From the NCBI GenBank assembly GCA_944323165.1, contig CALURK010000002.1, forward strand, positions 1 to 64,000: DNA of 64,000 nucleotides, written 5' to 3'. This stretch comes from Candidatus Gastranaerophilales bacterium. Lineage in GTDB: Bacteria > Cyanobacteriota > Vampirovibrionia > Gastranaerophilales > Gastranaerophilaceae. A program made the position numbers and the translations under genes. Below the pieces are notes generated by a model. It was not told the origin of the DNA, searched no databases, and saw only the letters and a program-made list of their open reading frames with translations. This document shows positions 3,701 through 19,525 of the stretch, in pieces (the stretch's first letter is position 1; every line of letters begins with the position of its first letter).

Positions 3701-5001
3701 AAGCTTCAATAGAAGTTAAGAAAGATGAAACATTCTCTAACTTAAGATCAAGAATTTCAGCAGAGTTTTCAGATGTAGATATAATCTTTGAAGATGGATA
3801 TTTGAAGTTCTATTCAAAAGATGGTAATTCTGTAGAAGTCGGTTCTACAACTGATACCTCAAACTTTGCAGCAATAACAGGTATTACCAGTGATGGTAAC
3901 GGAAATGCTGTAAGTGCAAGAGAACTATATAGTGTAAATTCAGGTTCTGTTATAACAAATACAGGTTTGTTCAGAAGAGGTGATGTTACAGAGGGTACAT
4001 TTGTTATAGGTAATGCAACATTTACTATTGATGATAAAACAACACTTTCTGATTTAATAGCACAAATAAATTCTAATGAAGAAGCTAATGCTACTGCATA
4101 CTGGGACAGCATTCAAGGTGAATTTGTTATTTCATCAAGGACAACTGGTTCTGCCTTAATTAACATAGAAGCAGGAACAAGTAACTTTACCGATATAATG
4201 GGTTATACCGATTCAGAGTGGAAAGCTGATGGAAAAGTCGATAACACTAAGATGAATGTAGAAAACCAAGAAGTCGGTAAGAATGCAATGTTTACAATAA
4301 ACGGAACAGCATATACTGCATCTTCAAATACTATCACCAGTGATATATCAAGAATTGAAGGTGTTACACTTAATCTTAAAGGGCTTACAGAAGGAGAATC
4401 AGTTACTGTAACCGTAGAACGAGATAAGGAAACTCTTGCCAATGCTGTATCAGATATCGTAGATGCTTATAATGAATTAATAAAGAATGTCGATGAGGCA
4501 ATCGCAGTCGATGGTGAATTGCATGATGAATCATTGTTAAAACTTGTTAGAAATCAGTTAAGAACAATGATGACATCAACAGATGCCGGAACTACTGTGT
4601 TTAGAAACCTTGATGCTATAGGTATAAAGGCAGATGCTGCAAGTGCAACTAATATCTCTACTGAAGGAATTACCGAACTTACATTTGATAAGGATAAGTT
4701 CTTCCAAGCTTTTGAAGCAGATCAAGATGCTGTAAAAGATTTGCTTATAGGTGGTGAAAATAACACAGGTATATTTACAAAGATAGAAACACTTATAGAA
4801 TCAACTCTAAGATCTGTTTCCGGATATTTTGACTCAGCTGATGATGCATATCAAAGAGAAATTAATGCTCTAGATAATAAAATTGATAAGCAAAAAAGAG
4901 CTTTGGAAAAATATAGAGCACAACTCGAAGCTAAATTTGCATCAATGGACTTACTAATAGCAAATATGCAGCAGCAATACAGCTCATTCCTTGTAACATA
5001 G
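1..5001 (+). CDS. fliD: Giant flagellar filament cap protein FliD (5' end outside window)
   Basis: Flagellar hook-associated protein 2, the cap under which flagellin folds at the filament tip. The frame is open from base 1, so the gene starts left of the window; the first internal ATG (163) is not the start. At least 1666 residues are visible, against roughly 400-700 for typical FliD. About 12 flagellin-IN-like beta modules of about 110 residues follow each other (pattern: T-x-L-S..G..N/Y-G-x-x-x-x-V, then D-T-x-x-x-L, then G-x-L-x-I). The last ~230 residues are the FliD C-terminal domain (NAVSDIVDAYNELI, then LDAIGIKAD) ending in a coiled coil rich in K/R/E/Q. Followed by two small unknown genes on the same strand. 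The C-terminal domain makes the family assignment firm; the role of the expanded middle is inference. Confidence 0.9.
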   Translation, partial: AGTNDGYITNISSNVQTALKLKAAGNGNTWTSSSETIISNTAGTTQKTYTTVTTMSTSATLGSLGLSGNGTIVVNYADKLHTVTFSATSTVDDVISSLGGLGISGSVNNGRLTLQGTNDGYITSISSNMQSALKLKAAGNGNTWTTSVETHYYNTDSSYQDYSTTETINAHSTFAQLGMGSNGTITVNYEGRNHTVTVKTTDTVDDIVTALAGLGISGTITGGKLTLAGTNDGYITNISSNVQTALKLKAAGKGVTYDTHTDTIFSNTTSDNLESARDDILITEDTVLSSINGFNNGNGNLIVHQTDGTFVTIKVDASSTLSEFFTQISKYGLVGNIDSDGKVSIEGIGNVYLQAASGGSNILTSLNMSNVIYNIQTVTVNRTSDTLSQIITVAASGTTEIGNIFDDAGNTIGSGNGTIVLSTTSDAGNRNVTLTFSRTQTLHDVIDKLSEFGILASIDSDGRFSVSSSTLKDFDISGNLGTLIMGPYSKEYGTSDTYHISTNLMQTTTVPMDPTTPLSNYGITSGNILITQQGVNYTVFVDTTQMQTVSDFMDFLAKYGFTSEIDAEGRLAVTGIGESYLSSLSGGSNILDKFGLTDWDMGALTQTSDHLTDKETIVIETTLDTKLNQLTDAAGNSLNITSGNIYVYQDGTRYLVNIDNNDTLQTLAAKLSQYGITMGLSTDGKLYFDGTNDSYMTTDGISTGASNLLQKINVLNNWSERYDSTSDNLSYTENVDRVVTGSTKLSELQDASGKNLGITEGAFYIYNNGVRNTETITADMTVNDLKALFAENGLIVDISENGQIAIGAYDNTYLATSAVAGANSNIVTTLFSEWDFVNIYTSNNLEIPKDIIEAVDRDTKLSDINEGTYQAGYITVVKDGVQTNIELKADDTIGTLMDELALYGFESVINEDGQLIIKNTGDSLLQKYVGSGQASNALDLLGIDLNNWIKTNSYESGSLGVITTSTFDAAATLDTELSLLGVSTGEYYIYQNGVKYTAYISSGETLGSFLETLKSFGIESSLVKNGDSSILTITGAGNSYITKSDSTNNASNVVEKLFGNLNLDTNYTYSGLEETSEIVTSYAAATEETLLSYYDKPWGTTTLKAEGALSVTVNDENAVIEITADETFGSLIDKFEALGLDASMTSDGKLVIQSGFDTFTINNNGTTSSLLATIGLTYNKDLGGYAASSNTTKATTTSIEEKTLSVANYAGFNTKMGLLNISDGTLTVYRNGEKASIEVKKDETFSNLRSRISAEFSDVDIIFEDGYLKFYSKDGNSVEVGSTTDTSNFAAITGITSDGNGNAVSARELYSVNSGSVITNTGLFRRGDVTEGTFVIGNATFTIDDKTTLSDLIAQINSNEEANATAYWDSIQGEFVISSRTTGSALINIEAGTSNFTDIMGYTDSEWKADGKVDNTKMNVENQEVGKNAMFTINGTAYTASSNTITSDISRIEGVTLNLKGLTEGESVTVTVERDKETLANAVSDIVDAYNELIKNVDEAIAVDGELHDESLLKLVRNQLRTMMTSTDAGTTVFRNLDAIGIKADAASATNISTEGITELTFDKDKFFQAFEADQDAVKDLLIGGENNTGIFTKIETLIESTLRSVSGYFDSADDAYQREINALDNKIDKQKRALEKYRAQLEAKFASMDLLIANMQQQYSSFLVT

Positions 5002-15066: not shown

Positions 15067-15143
15067 GGCGGATATCGTCAAGTGGTTAAGACCTCGGATT
15101 GTGGTTCCGATATACGTGGGTTCGAATCCCACTATCCGCCCCA
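15067..15143 (+). tRNA. tRNA-His (GTG)
   Basis: Complete cloverleaf. The acceptor stem is GCGGATA / TATCCGC, with an extra G at position -1 (15067) facing C73 (15140), the hallmark of tRNA-His. CCA is encoded (15141-15143). The anticodon stem TCGGA / TCCGA encloses loop TTGTGGT, anticodon GTG. A 17-bp copy of its 3' end recurs at 15971. Confidence 0.97.
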
Positions 15144-15196: not shown

Positions 15197-15511
15197 TTAT
15201 GCAACCTGTAATGTATAACCAAGTTCTTTTAATAACTTTCCGATTGTATCTAATCTTGGCACACGTTCACCTTTAAACATTTCGTATAATGCAGCTCTTG
15301 TTATACCTGTTTTTTGTGAAAATTCACTTATGCTCATACGTGCTTTTATTACTTGTTCCAAAGATTGAAAGAACAAATCATAATCACCATCTGTAATAAA
15401 TTCTTGTATTGCAGCATTTAAATACATTTTTTGATACTCTTCATCCATAAGAACATTATTCAGATGTTCTTCATGTGTAATATTTTCAGATTTTATTTTA
15501 TCAATATCCAT
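15197..15511 (-). CDS. HigA-like antitoxin (HTH, addiction module antidote)
   Basis: Antitoxin that neutralises the upstream toxin and represses the operon. The frame extends upstream to 15589, but the ATG at 15511 follows the toxin stop by one base and has AAAGAAAGG 10 nt before it; this gives 104 residues. The C-terminal helix-turn-helix (MSISEFSQKTGITRAALYEMF, then LLKELGYTL) matches antidotes of the HI1420 type. The N-terminus is acidic. Toxin-first order is normal for this family. Confidence 0.88.
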   Translation of the reverse strand: MDIDKIKSENITHEEHLNNVLMDEEYQKMYLNAAIQEFITDGDYDLFFQSLEQVIKARMSISEFSQKTGITRAALYEMFKGERVPRLDTIGKLLKELGYTLQVA

Positions 15512-15512
15512 T

Positions 15513-15830
15513 TTATTTATACCTTTCTTTAAATTCTTGTAAATATGTCTTTGCCAGATTGATATCTTTCGATTGCTTTGATTTATCACCTGCAGATAAT
15601 AAAACTATTATTACATCATCAAATTCATAAGCATATATTCTATAACCTGCACCTTCTGTGAATTTTATCTCTGTTAAATTATCAAATTTACGATATTTAC
15701 CTAAATTTCCAAGTTTTATACGGTCAAGCCTTCTATCAATAATCAACCTAACACTTTTATCTAAGGAATTATACCACTCAAGATAAGGACACTTCCCATT
15801 GATTGTTTTGTAATAAATTATTTCTTTCAT
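15513..15830 (-). CDS. HigB/RelE-type toxin (Gp49-like addiction module killer)
   Basis: Predicted ribosome-dependent mRNA endonuclease, 105 residues. Conserved features of the family are Y-x-E-W-Y near the N-terminus, RIKLGNLGKYRKF, a G-x-G-Y-R-I-Y strand, and LLSAGDKSKQSKDI near the end. The ATG at 15830 has no ribosome site and lies only 6 nt after a strong -10 element, so the mRNA is probably leaderless. The gene pair sits between two copies of the tRNA-His 3' end. Confidence 0.9.
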   Translation of the reverse strand: MKEIIYYKTINGKCPYLEWYNSLDKSVRLIIDRRLDRIKLGNLGKYRKFDNLTEIKFTEGAGYRIYAYEFDDVIIVLLSAGDKSKQSKDINLAKTYLQEFKERYK

Positions 15831-17001: not shown

Positions 17002-18435
17002 TTAACCGTTAATTAATGATAAACAATTTGAGTCATTAAATGCTTGTAGTGATGGATTTATTTGAATAGCAGTCGCGTAATCTTTTCTAAATCCTTCGTT
17101 ATCACCAAGTTCTTTTCTGATAGCAGCTCTATAGTAGTATGCATCTGCATATTTAGAATTATTTTCAATAGCTTTATTCAAATCTGCTATAGCTCCCTGC
17201 AAATCTCTAAGTACGCATTTCTGAAGCCCTCGTATATAGTAGCTTTCTGCAAGCTTGATATTTGTTGTAGGATTTTGTTTTACAGCAGTTGTTGTTATTA
17301 CAGGAGAGCTTGGAGCTTTAACCGTTGCAACTCCTGCGCTAATAGTGTTATGTGCAATTGTTTCATTTTTTTCTTCAATAACTTTAGGCTTTACAACTGT
17401 AGTTACCTTAGTCTGTTGTTTTGTTTGTGTTTGAGGTATTACATTTACTTGTTTTTGAACCTGATTATAAGCAATTTCTTTGTTTGATTGCTGTTTTACT
17501 GTAGAACGAACTTGCGCTTGCTGCGTAGCAGGTTTGATAGGGTTGGCATTTTGGATTTCAGCACTTGCAACTTGAACAGTTTCAGATTTTATTGCCGGCT
17601 GTTGTGTAAAGCTCGGGACAACGCCTCTTACGGTAGGAATTGCTACTATATAGCTTTCATTAGATAATAAAGGTTTTACGTTTTTGATGAAAGTCTGTGT
17701 TTCTGCAAGTGCAATAGCTTGGTCTAGGTCGATTGCTGCACCTTCATTATCAAAGTACAGTTTTTTTAAACGTCCTCTGTTTGCGTAAGCAATACTGTCT
17801 TTAGGGTTTAGTGCTATAGCTTGCGAATAATCACTTAGGGCTCCTACGTTAAAGTTCATTCTTTTTTTTACAACGCCTCTGTTATTAAAAGCTTCAGCAT
17901 CTTTTGGATTTAGTTCAATAGCGATATTGTAATCCTCTAACGCACCTTTGTTGTCATCTAACATGTATTTTAAATTAGCTCTGTTGTAATAAACATCAGA
18001 ATAATTTTTGTTTATGGAAAGAGCTTTAGCATAGTCTTCCATCGCACCATTAATATCATTTAACGCTACTTTTAGGACGCCTCTGTTGTTGTAAGCGTAT
18101 GCAAAGTTTCCATTAATAGATATAGCCTTATTATAATCAGCCATGGCGCCATCAGTGTCATTAATTAATTGTTTAATATACCCTCTGTTCAGATAAAGTT
18201 CAGGGTTATTAGGGTTAAGCTCAATTGCTTTGTTAAAGTCTTGTATTGCCCCTTGAATATCTTGTTTCAAGAATCTCATAGAAGCTCTATTTGAATAAGC
18301 AAGAGAGGCATTCGGATTTTCTTGAATTTGTTTAGTATAATTTTCAATCGATTTGTCGAGAGGAGTTTCAGCAAAAACAGTGCTGTTAAAGCTTAACAGT
18401 ACTATGGCTGCAAGTATCAATCCTATTTTTTTCAC
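17002..18435 (-). CDS. Secreted tetratricopeptide-repeat protein
   Basis: 477 residues. The GTG start has AAGGAG 9 nt upstream. The signal peptide ends VFA-E. About seven TPRs follow (pattern N-R-G/A..L-x-D..G-A-x-x-D-Y/F-N-K-A-I-x-L-N-P; residues about 35-275). A Gln/Thr/Val/Lys-rich linker of about 110 residues comes next, then two more TPRs at the end (YYIRGLQKCVLRDLQGAI). TPRs are protein-docking surfaces, so this is probably a periplasmic scaffold. Partner unknown. Confidence 0.85.
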   Translation of the reverse strand: MKKIGLILAAIVLLSFNSTVFAETPLDKSIENYTKQIQENPNASLAYSNRASMRFLKQDIQGAIQDFNKAIELNPNNPELYLNRGYIKQLINDTDGAMADYNKAISINGNFAYAYNNRGVLKVALNDINGAMEDYAKALSINKNYSDVYYNRANLKYMLDDNKGALEDYNIAIELNPKDAEAFNNRGVVKKRMNFNVGALSDYSQAIALNPKDSIAYANRGRLKKLYFDNEGAAIDLDQAIALAETQTFIKNVKPLLSNESYIVAIPTVRGVVPSFTQQPAIKSETVQVASAEIQNANPIKPATQQAQVRSTVKQQSNKEIAYNQVQKQVNVIPQTQTKQQTKVTTVVKPKVIEEKNETIAHNTISAGVATVKAPSSPVITTTAVKQNPTTNIKLAESYYIRGLQKCVLRDLQGAIADLNKAIENNSKYADAYYYRAAIRKELGDNEGFRKDYATAIQINPSLQAFNDSNCLSLING

Positions 18436-18552
18436 GATACGTACTCCTTCATCAAGTTGGGCTAGGTTAATATTAACACATAATAATTTTATATCAACAT
18501 AATGTAAATAAATATATACACTCAGGTATTAGTAAAAAATGTAGATAAAAAA

Positions 18553-18581
18553 CTGATTAAAAAGAAAATTTGTGTTATACT
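18553..18581 (+). promoter_or_regulatory. Promoter of tRNA-Thr
   Basis: CTGATT, 17 nt, TATACT, ending 14 nt before the tRNA. The -35 is weak, the -10 and spacing good. Confidence 0.5.
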
Positions 18582-18595
18582 GGTCTAGAAAATAT

Positions 18596-18668
18596 GCCGA
18601 TGTGGCTCAGGTGGTAGAGCAATTGATTCGTAATCAATAGGTCGGGAGTTCGAGTCTCCCCATCGGCA
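18596..18668 (+). tRNA. tRNA-Thr (CGT)
   Basis: 73-nt cloverleaf. Acceptor stem GCCGATG / CATCGGC, D-stem GCTC / GAGC, anticodon stem ATTGA / TCAAT with loop TTCGTAA (anticodon CGT), T-stem GGGAG / CTCCC, discriminator A. CCA is not encoded, unlike tRNA-His. Its 3' half is duplicated 169 nt downstream. Confidence 0.97.
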
Positions 18669-18681
18669 TTTTTCGAAGAAA
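18653..18681 (+). repeat. Left copy of a 29-bp repeat at the tRNA-Thr 3' end
   Basis: Runs from the T-arm through the acceptor strand and 13 nt past the tRNA, and is identical to 18822-18850. The 169-nt period looks like an insertion that restored the tRNA 3' end. Confidence 0.9.
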
Positions 18682-18699
18682 AATGAATGGTAGAGATGA

Positions 18700-18799
18700 G
18701 AACTCCAAATGCGCAAGCATTAAAAAGAGTTCGAGCGCGAACGAGCAGAGGCTGAAAGGTTTTGCGAGGGGCAAAGCGCAGAAGCAAAACCAAGAAGCC
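18700..18799 (+). other. GC-rich structured insert between tRNA-Thr 3'-end copies
   Basis: The 140 nt between the repeats contain 68 G/C (about 49%), far above the flanking DNA. It folds well. GAACTC (18700-18705) pairs with GAGTTC (18727-18732) around AATGC-GCAA-GCATT, a 5-bp stem capped by a GNRA-type loop. GGCT..GGTTTTGC (18750-18765) pairs with GCAAAACC..AGCC (18784-18799). No credible ORF: the minus-strand frame through it is an antisense tRNA artefact. It may be co-transcribed with tRNA-Thr, as no terminator lies between. Confidence 0.6.
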
Positions 18800-18821
18800 G
18801 TTTAACGCGAGTGAGCAAGAC

Positions 18822-18850
18822 AGTCTCCCCATCGGCATTTTTCGAAGAAA
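18822..18850 (+). repeat. Right copy of the 29-bp tRNA-Thr 3'-end repeat
   Basis: Perfect copy of 18653-18681, including CCCCATCGGCA of the tRNA acceptor end and the flank TTTTTCGAAGAAA. Confidence 0.9.
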
Positions 18851-18898
18851 CTAAGTTAAATGCATTTTGATTAAATAAAGTCGGTCTTGGAGGCTTTT

Positions 18899-19525
18899 AT
18901 GAAAGTTTTATTATTAAACGGAAGTTCAAATAAAAATGGCTGTACTTTTACTGCACTTAGTGAAGTAGCAAAAGCTCTTAATAATGAAGGTATTGAAACA
19001 GAGATTTTTCAGTTAGGCAATTGTGAAATCCGTGACTGCTGTGGTTGCGGAGCTTGTAAAAAAGGCCTTGGTAAGTGTGTTTTTGAAGATGGCTTGGTAA
19101 ATGAATTTATAGAAAAAGCAAAATCTTCTGATGGTTTTGTATTTGGAACTCCTGTTTATTATGCTCACCCATCAGGAAGAATACTTTCTTTTCTTGATAG
19201 GGCTTTTTATGCAGGCAAAAGTGCTTTTGAATTCAAGCCAGGAGCAGCCATAGCTTCAGCAAGACGTTCAGGCACAACTGCCAGTTTTGATGTTTTAAAT
19301 AAGTACTTTACAATAAACAATATGCCTGTTATATCATCAGGGTATTGGAATAATATTCACGGTCATGTTGCAGAAGATGCTTTAAAAGACTTAGAAGGTT
19401 TACAAGTTATGAGAACTTTAGGACGCAATATGGCTTGGATTTTAAAATGTGTAGAACATGGAAGGCAAAATGGTATTACAAGGCCGGAGAAAGAAGAGCA
19501 AATATATACCAGTTTTATAAAGTAG
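18899..19525 (+). CDS. NADPH-dependent FMN reductase / iron-sulfur flavoprotein family
   Basis: Flavodoxin-fold oxidoreductase, 208 residues. A TTG frame start at 18887 is rejected: GGAGG (18889-18893) sits 5 nt before the ATG at 18899. The N-terminal phosphate loop is LNGSSNKNGCT. A cysteine cluster (DCCGCGACKKGLGKC, residues about 46-60) recalls iron-sulfur flavoproteins. FGTPVYYAHPSG is the second flavin loop. Seven nt before the Lrp gene, so it heads that operon. The electron acceptor is unknown. Confidence 0.85.
   Translation: MKVLLLNGSSNKNGCTFTALSEVAKALNNEGIETEIFQLGNCEIRDCCGCGACKKGLGKCVFEDGLVNEFIEKAKSSDGFVFGTPVYYAHPSGRILSFLDRAFYAGKSAFEFKPGAAIASARRSGTTASFDVLNKYFTINNMPVISSGYWNNIHGHVAEDALKDLEGLQVMRTLGRNMAWILKCVEHGRQNGITRPEKEEQIYTSFIK

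Follow-up and report, generated by a model that had tools for sequence, protein, structure and literature searches.

A putative family of tiny, order-wide tRNA-integrating elements with target-matched arms in Gastranaerophilales

Bacterial mobile DNA classically docks at transfer RNA genes, as a rule with one integrase per tRNA. In the tRNA-integrating islands and ICEs of tyrosine integrases, as the Islander definition describes them (PMC4383910), integration takes place inside the tRNA gene, the element's own 3′ part restores the gene, the displaced fragment forms a direct repeat, and integration can occur in tandem. Integron cassettes form tandem arrays with attC sites, imperfect hairpins whose structure is kept more than their sequence (PMC3053210), and in IS110 a bridge RNA carries target guides that pair with opposite strands (PMC11208160). 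Rickettsia palindromic elements (RPEs) and other MITEs include palindromic repeats of about 100-150 bp that also occur as in-frame insertions in genes (PMC10969869), and the REP/BIME sequences associated with RAYT are dispersed hairpins. The element described here can be likened in part to each of these systems, and our comparisons indicate that it probably represents a new family of tiny tRNA-integrating elements, distributed across an order and carrying arms matched to their targets. The family is apparently undescribed in the open literature searched.

The analysis started from a stretch of 64,000 nucleotides (hereafter the window) of a Gastranaerophilales genome, the host being a gut bacterium. 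An original prediction for the window had described a 29-nt repeat around a 140-nt structured, non-coding insert behind tRNA-Thr, with no terminator in between. A repeat search recovered this perfect direct repeat as the sole direct-repeat family within 18300-19200, a length judged to be far beyond chance. Within the T-loop of tRNA-Thr(CGT), A58 is the first base of copy 1 (Table 1). Homologous copies of the insert (18682-18821) were found across the genome. The insert folds better than shuffled sequences (z of -2.4 alone and -4.9 with the tRNA), and the predicted fold includes the GCAA-capped small hairpin of the prediction (18708-18721) and a long imperfect hairpin; compensatory changes in the core and the arms confirm that the insert is structured. 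When the window sequence is folded alone, P2 and E appear and P1 is weak, and the arm-containing fold of this single copy is modestly better than shuffles (z about -1.5). The only ORF over the insert (87 aa) lies on the minus strand, antisense to the tRNA, and a scan of the tRNA strand from tRNA-Thr to the second repeat found no terminator. The observation behind the prediction is thereby confirmed. The other tRNA gene of the window, tRNA-His (15068-15143), has no E element. Directly 3′ of it, at 15197-15830 on the minus strand, lies a toxin-antitoxin-like pair, consisting of an antidote protein (PF21716) with an HTH and a small partner without a Pfam match.

Table 1. Predicted and annotated features of the element behind tRNA-Thr(CGT) in the window.
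Feature	Position	Strand	Basis
tRNA-Thr(CGT), target	18595..18669	+	ARAGORN; Rfam RF00005, 73 bits; sequence
T-arm of tRNA-Thr, GGGAG TTCGAGT CTCCC	18644-18660	+	sequence
Insertion point, A58/N59 of tRNA-Thr	18653/18654	+	sequence
Direct repeat copy 1: tRNA 3′ part from A58 plus 12-13 nt; completes a working tRNA	18653..18681	+	repeat search; empty/filled comparison
Spacer from tRNA end to guide; no terminator	18682..18692	+	sequence; terminator scan
Inverted T-arm "guide", GAGAT-GA-GAACTCC	18693..18706	+	sequence; covariation over 49 units
P1, possible pairing of guide with T3 side	18693-18697 with 18823-18827		sequence; covariation
P2, possible pairing of guide with T5	18700-18705 with 18727-18732		sequence; covariation; also in fold predictions
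Small stem-loop, AATGC-GCAA-GCATT	18708..18721	+	folds
T5, copy of T-arm 5′ strand, GAGTTCGA	18727..18734	+	sequence; own-tRNA matching across loci
Mobile core E, GCGCGAACGAGC...GTTTAACGCGAGTGAGCAAGAC, imperfect hairpin with GA/GA steps	18735..18821	+	covariance model; covariation
Direct repeat copy 2: displaced original tRNA 3′ end	18822..18850	+	repeat search; filled/empty pairs

The core of the insert, E, is a folded sequence of about 90 nt with strong covariation. A covariance model of E was built on 24 sequences with 21 pairs, and its covariation score of 0.363 compares with 0.134 in shuffles (0 of 500 as high) and also lies above slid controls; the match of covariance model R1 to the window copy extends over 18728-18828 (96 bits). 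In Rfam searches only the tRNA itself reached a family's threshold, and relaxing the threshold added one weak chance match. By BLAST the insert matched its own genome six times, counting itself, and relatives turned up in 22 of the 57 genomes queried, all of the same genus. The covariance model detected 17 copies in that genome (E-value ≤ 0.1, the last one weak) and found E in 57 of 58 congeneric genomes and in 202 of the 241 genomes of the order Gastranaerophilales, where the copy numbers per genome from the large searches are to be read as "at least". The absence of other copies or homologues, which the original prediction had named as the outcome that would count against it, is thus clearly contradicted, both within the genome and across the order. 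Other classes of the phylum gave no match in a sample of 292 phylum genomes, and neither did viral contigs in a pattern search nor phage and plasmid records in BLAST. An exact 23-nt pattern of E retrieved 109 stretches from 84,980 species, with titles naming Gastranaerophilales, Melainabacteria or unnamed bacteria. Two further loci, labelled "Fusobacterium" (L160) and "Acinetobacter" (L165), were discounted as occurrences elsewhere: they are likely mislabelled Gastranaerophilales MAGs, because their flanking proteins match Gastranaerophilales loci (best hits at 88-94% and at about 71-75% identity).

The retrieved loci contain 184 E copies, of which 117 lie no more than 1.5 kb 3′ of a tRNA on the same strand, 20 are cut off at the edge of a contig or locus, and 47 have no tRNA; only 3 lie near a tRNA on the opposite strand. 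The tRNAs behind which E occurs comprise 31 anticodon types, and the distance from the tRNA to the start of the first unit is 56-98 nt in nearly all cases. The sequence after E shares at least 7 of 16 nt with the 3′ end of its own tRNA in 80% of cases, against 4% when compared with other tRNAs.

Thirty congeners were compared at the orthologous tRNA-Thr locus; E is present in 12 of the alleles, 4 are relics and 14 are empty. Exactly one unit, with its 15-nt repeat, separates filled from empty alleles both in the comparison of G078 (L331) with G077, G019 and G059 and in that of G027 (L341) with G003 and G012. The units are gene-free and measure about 159-198 bp. They start with the tRNA 3′ end (15 nt, running from N59 to the final base), which is followed by spacer, guide, stem-loop, T5 and E. 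The unit of G078 has a length of 159 bp and has left the former terminator on the far side of the displaced tRNA end. In these comparisons the unit is shown to insert between A58 and N59, to rebuild the tRNA from the 3′ end that it brings along and to leave the displaced end at its far side, so that the tRNA stays whole through duplication of its last 15 nt. Mobility at the DNA level, as read from the empty sites in genome assemblies, is well supported. Together with the 17 copies in its own genome and the 31 tRNA types, these filled and empty sites bear out the first of the two original suggestions, a non-autonomous mobile element at tRNA 3′ ends, the second having been a new structured RNA. 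The units resemble islands and ICEs in that the target is regenerated, the displaced fragment lies at the far end, integration can be tandem and empty sites exist, but they have no integrase of their own, are only about 160 bp long and gene-free, use one core for 31 tRNA types, and contain the T-arm in an inverted copy, with which both sides of the core pair.

This inverted copy, the guide, is present in each unit, corresponds to the T-arm of the unit's own tRNA and covaries with it. Over 49 units, which were picked by a regular expression for the guide motif and in which decayed guides are therefore under-represented, the guide pairs with T5 and with T3 after E by standard pairs in 84% of cells. 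The covariation of the arm pairing was 0.350, compared with 0.176 in shuffles (0 of 500 as high) and at most 0.111 when slid, and in part follows from the self-complementarity of T-stems. No such constraint from the T-stem applies to the pairing of the guide with loop base N59, which is C-G in 25 and U-A in 20 of the 49 units. The arms are imperfect, the outermost pairs often failing. At its centre the guide duplex contains a G-A/G-A step (positions 57-58), and the A58/N59 boundary is precisely where E enters. Pairing of the guide with T5 and T3 would, in our model, generate a three-way junction in which E forms the third arm at the insertion point.

Where no tRNA is present, E follows a rho-independent terminator, forms part of an E-F-E hairpin array, or lies at a stop codon or within a gene. 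At six loci (L190, L206, L389, L393, L404 and L405), E starts exactly at the stop codon of a protein gene (..TAG|CGCGAGC..), and other tRNA-less copies directly follow the T-tract of a terminator. In G037, from another family of the order, E lies in frame in four prepilin genes (L394, L398, L399 and L401), next to or between FTLAE motifs (GFTLAEADCEQRLKLAGSG...NQEKRKAFTLAET); three of the four are between two such motifs in the stretch read. In the arrays of L126, L165 and L208, E alternates with a second type of hairpin module, F (GCGGATTTTGGCAAGAGTGAGCG...CGCCAATAATCC). In palindromic form, size and in-frame insertion, the last so far in G037 alone, E resembles RPEs and other MITEs; it differs from them in that its main targets are tRNA T-loops, its arms match the target and the target end is restored.

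Between or after E copies, various cargo was found. L137 has a gene for a ParE toxin together with that of its partner, and L152 has a GIY-YIG protein; in G082, two E copies of the tRNA-Ile type enclose a 13.5-kb island in which HipA and type I restriction-modification genes lie (L313:4427-18086). Some cargo sits in E hairpins that are cut at varying points and has a common right end (TTCTTTTACA), a pattern suggestive of a second mobile element that lands in E. Another element end that recurs, the second of its kind (AATCAAACCATGTGTTCTTTTACA), is joined to E or to the guide, the point of junction again being variable (L199:1049-6422, L202:1329-5528, L176, L217 and L016), and the cargo there includes MatE transporters and toxin-antitoxin genes. 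An autonomous version with genes inside E was considered and rejected: E halves split by cargo exist, but their breakpoints vary, so that they have the appearance of later insertions or deletions in E. At L295 (reverse strand, about 4636-4900), tandem damaged 5′ parts of tRNA-Ile with an inserted hairpin were observed upstream of the intact gene.

The reading that we favour, with slightly better than even confidence, is that of a non-autonomous, gene-free integrative element whose folded, target-matched recombination site is served in trans. E would move as other tRNA-integrating elements do, but by way of a folded site: a recombinase supplied in trans would recognise the constant E branch, and the pairing arms would rebuild a T-arm-like duplex to be exchanged with the tRNA gene. 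This duplex would thus take the place of the T-arm of the tRNA, in the manner of the folded attC sites on which integron integrases act. After a move to another tRNA, the arms would be rewritten from the new target, and the folded strand could be DNA, as for attC, or RNA. Like attC, E is an imperfect hairpin, predicted by folding and by covariation, that is kept more in structure than in sequence, and the likeness to integron cassettes extends to the tandem, cassette-like arrays and to the toxin-antitoxin cargo between some E copies; in contrast to attC, the partner of E is a tRNA T-arm, the third arm is large and the arms match each tRNA. Tyrosine recombinases were searched for at the level of the general family PF00589, and among five E-rich and five E-poor genomes none tracked E copy number. 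XerC/XerD-like and other tyrosine recombinases are present in all compared genomes irrespective of E number, and a host Xer enzyme is therefore a possible recombinase for E.

A stronger form of this reading, to which we give tentative credence as a minority view, is a self-retargeting nucleic-acid-guided element, in which the constant core would gain a guide copied from the target T-arm, and this guide, as folded DNA or RNA, would direct recombination through a trans-acting enzyme. Target choice by short guide pairing, as with the IS110 bridge RNA, is conceivable for E. However, both halves of the E guide are complementary to the same contiguous strand, in contrast to the opposite-strand pairing of bridge-RNA target guides, and an IS110 (DEDD) recombinase was found in 0 of 10 copy-rich genomes in searches that detected the positive controls.

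The main rival, which we regard as unlikely though deserving serious weight, is that the elements are old vertical residents whose arms co-evolve with the tRNA, while E is homogenised by RecA-type gene conversion without insertion. E is 99% identical behind tRNA-Arg(ACG) and tRNA-Ser(GCT) in one MAG and behind Gln(TTG) and Thr(CGT) in two genomes, 95% identical behind Ser and Lys in one MAG, and 94% identical behind Gly and Tyr in G223. In these near-identical pairs the spacer, guide, stem-loop and T5/T3 differ, each fitting the local tRNA, which identifies E as the common part and the arms as local. We count these pairs as evidence for movement of E between tRNAs, although conversion of resident copies could give a similar pattern. 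Conversion would account for this restriction of the shared sequence to E and is in keeping with the repetitiveness of E within genomes and with the frequency of tandem units. For 18 of 102 copies, the E most similar to it in another genome belongs to the same tRNA, against 3.5 expected (maximum 16 in 2000 permutations), a result that also favours conversion and lends weak support to tRNA-specific E lineages; the E cores do not sort cleanly by tRNA. On the other hand, clean empty sites lie beside filled ones in congeners and about half of the alleles are empty, so that whole units must come or go, and the first arrival in 31 tRNA types is left unexplained by conversion.

It is improbable, in our assessment, that E is att-site debris, namely the attachment-region arm of tyrosine-integrase islands, with the small units as deletion leftovers. 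Integrase fragments and islands of 5-14 kb do lie between E copies at tRNA-Ile, and the use of the T-loop and the restored tRNA end are alike. At every other tRNA looked at, however, no intact integrase lies beside E, and genomes rich and poor in E are alike in their integrase genes; a single E core for 31 tRNA types would be unexpected from independent integrases, and E also occurs outside tRNAs.

A functional tRNA-linked RNA, made from the tRNA promoter and either regulating tRNA maturation or acting as a small RNA, with mobility secondary, seems to us quite improbable. Such an RNA would fit the strong base-pair conservation, the sense orientation and the lack of a terminator before the element in the window and at some tRNA-Thr loci. 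Against it stand the patchy occurrence within one genus at one locus (12 filled, 14 empty) and the copies at stop codons and in coding frames. Moreover, at many other tRNAs a terminator intervenes before the element or its guide, so that co-transcription with the tRNA is not a rule of the family and an RNA form is not assured.

Finally, we rejected a REP-like hairpin moved by a RAYT (TnpA_REP) transposase as barely credible. E does resemble REP/BIME in its dispersed hairpins and occasional E-F-E arrays after terminators, and RAYT genes occur in 79 of the 241 genomes of the order and lie just 3′ of four tRNA-E arrays. However, E lacks the GTAG motif, PF01797 has no match in G000 and G005, both of which are rich in E, the RAYT genes beside the arrays have GTAG-type hairpins of their own on their flanks (REP-like hairpins being in view at three of the four), and Y1 transposition is not known to give 15-nt repeats. 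The four loci with RAYT genes 3′ of the arrays (L293, L294, L295 and L136) have the character of a hot spot.

With a recombination site served in trans as the favoured reading, the family presents, throughout an order of gut bacteria, one gene-free core in 31 tRNA types, with arms that mostly suit the tRNA at each site. Either the guide is written by the target, or the match of the arms is maintained by conversion together with selection. The E loci gather toxin-antitoxin genes and a type I restriction system, and through this gathering of cargo they may be a main route of accessory-gene turnover in Gastranaerophilales.
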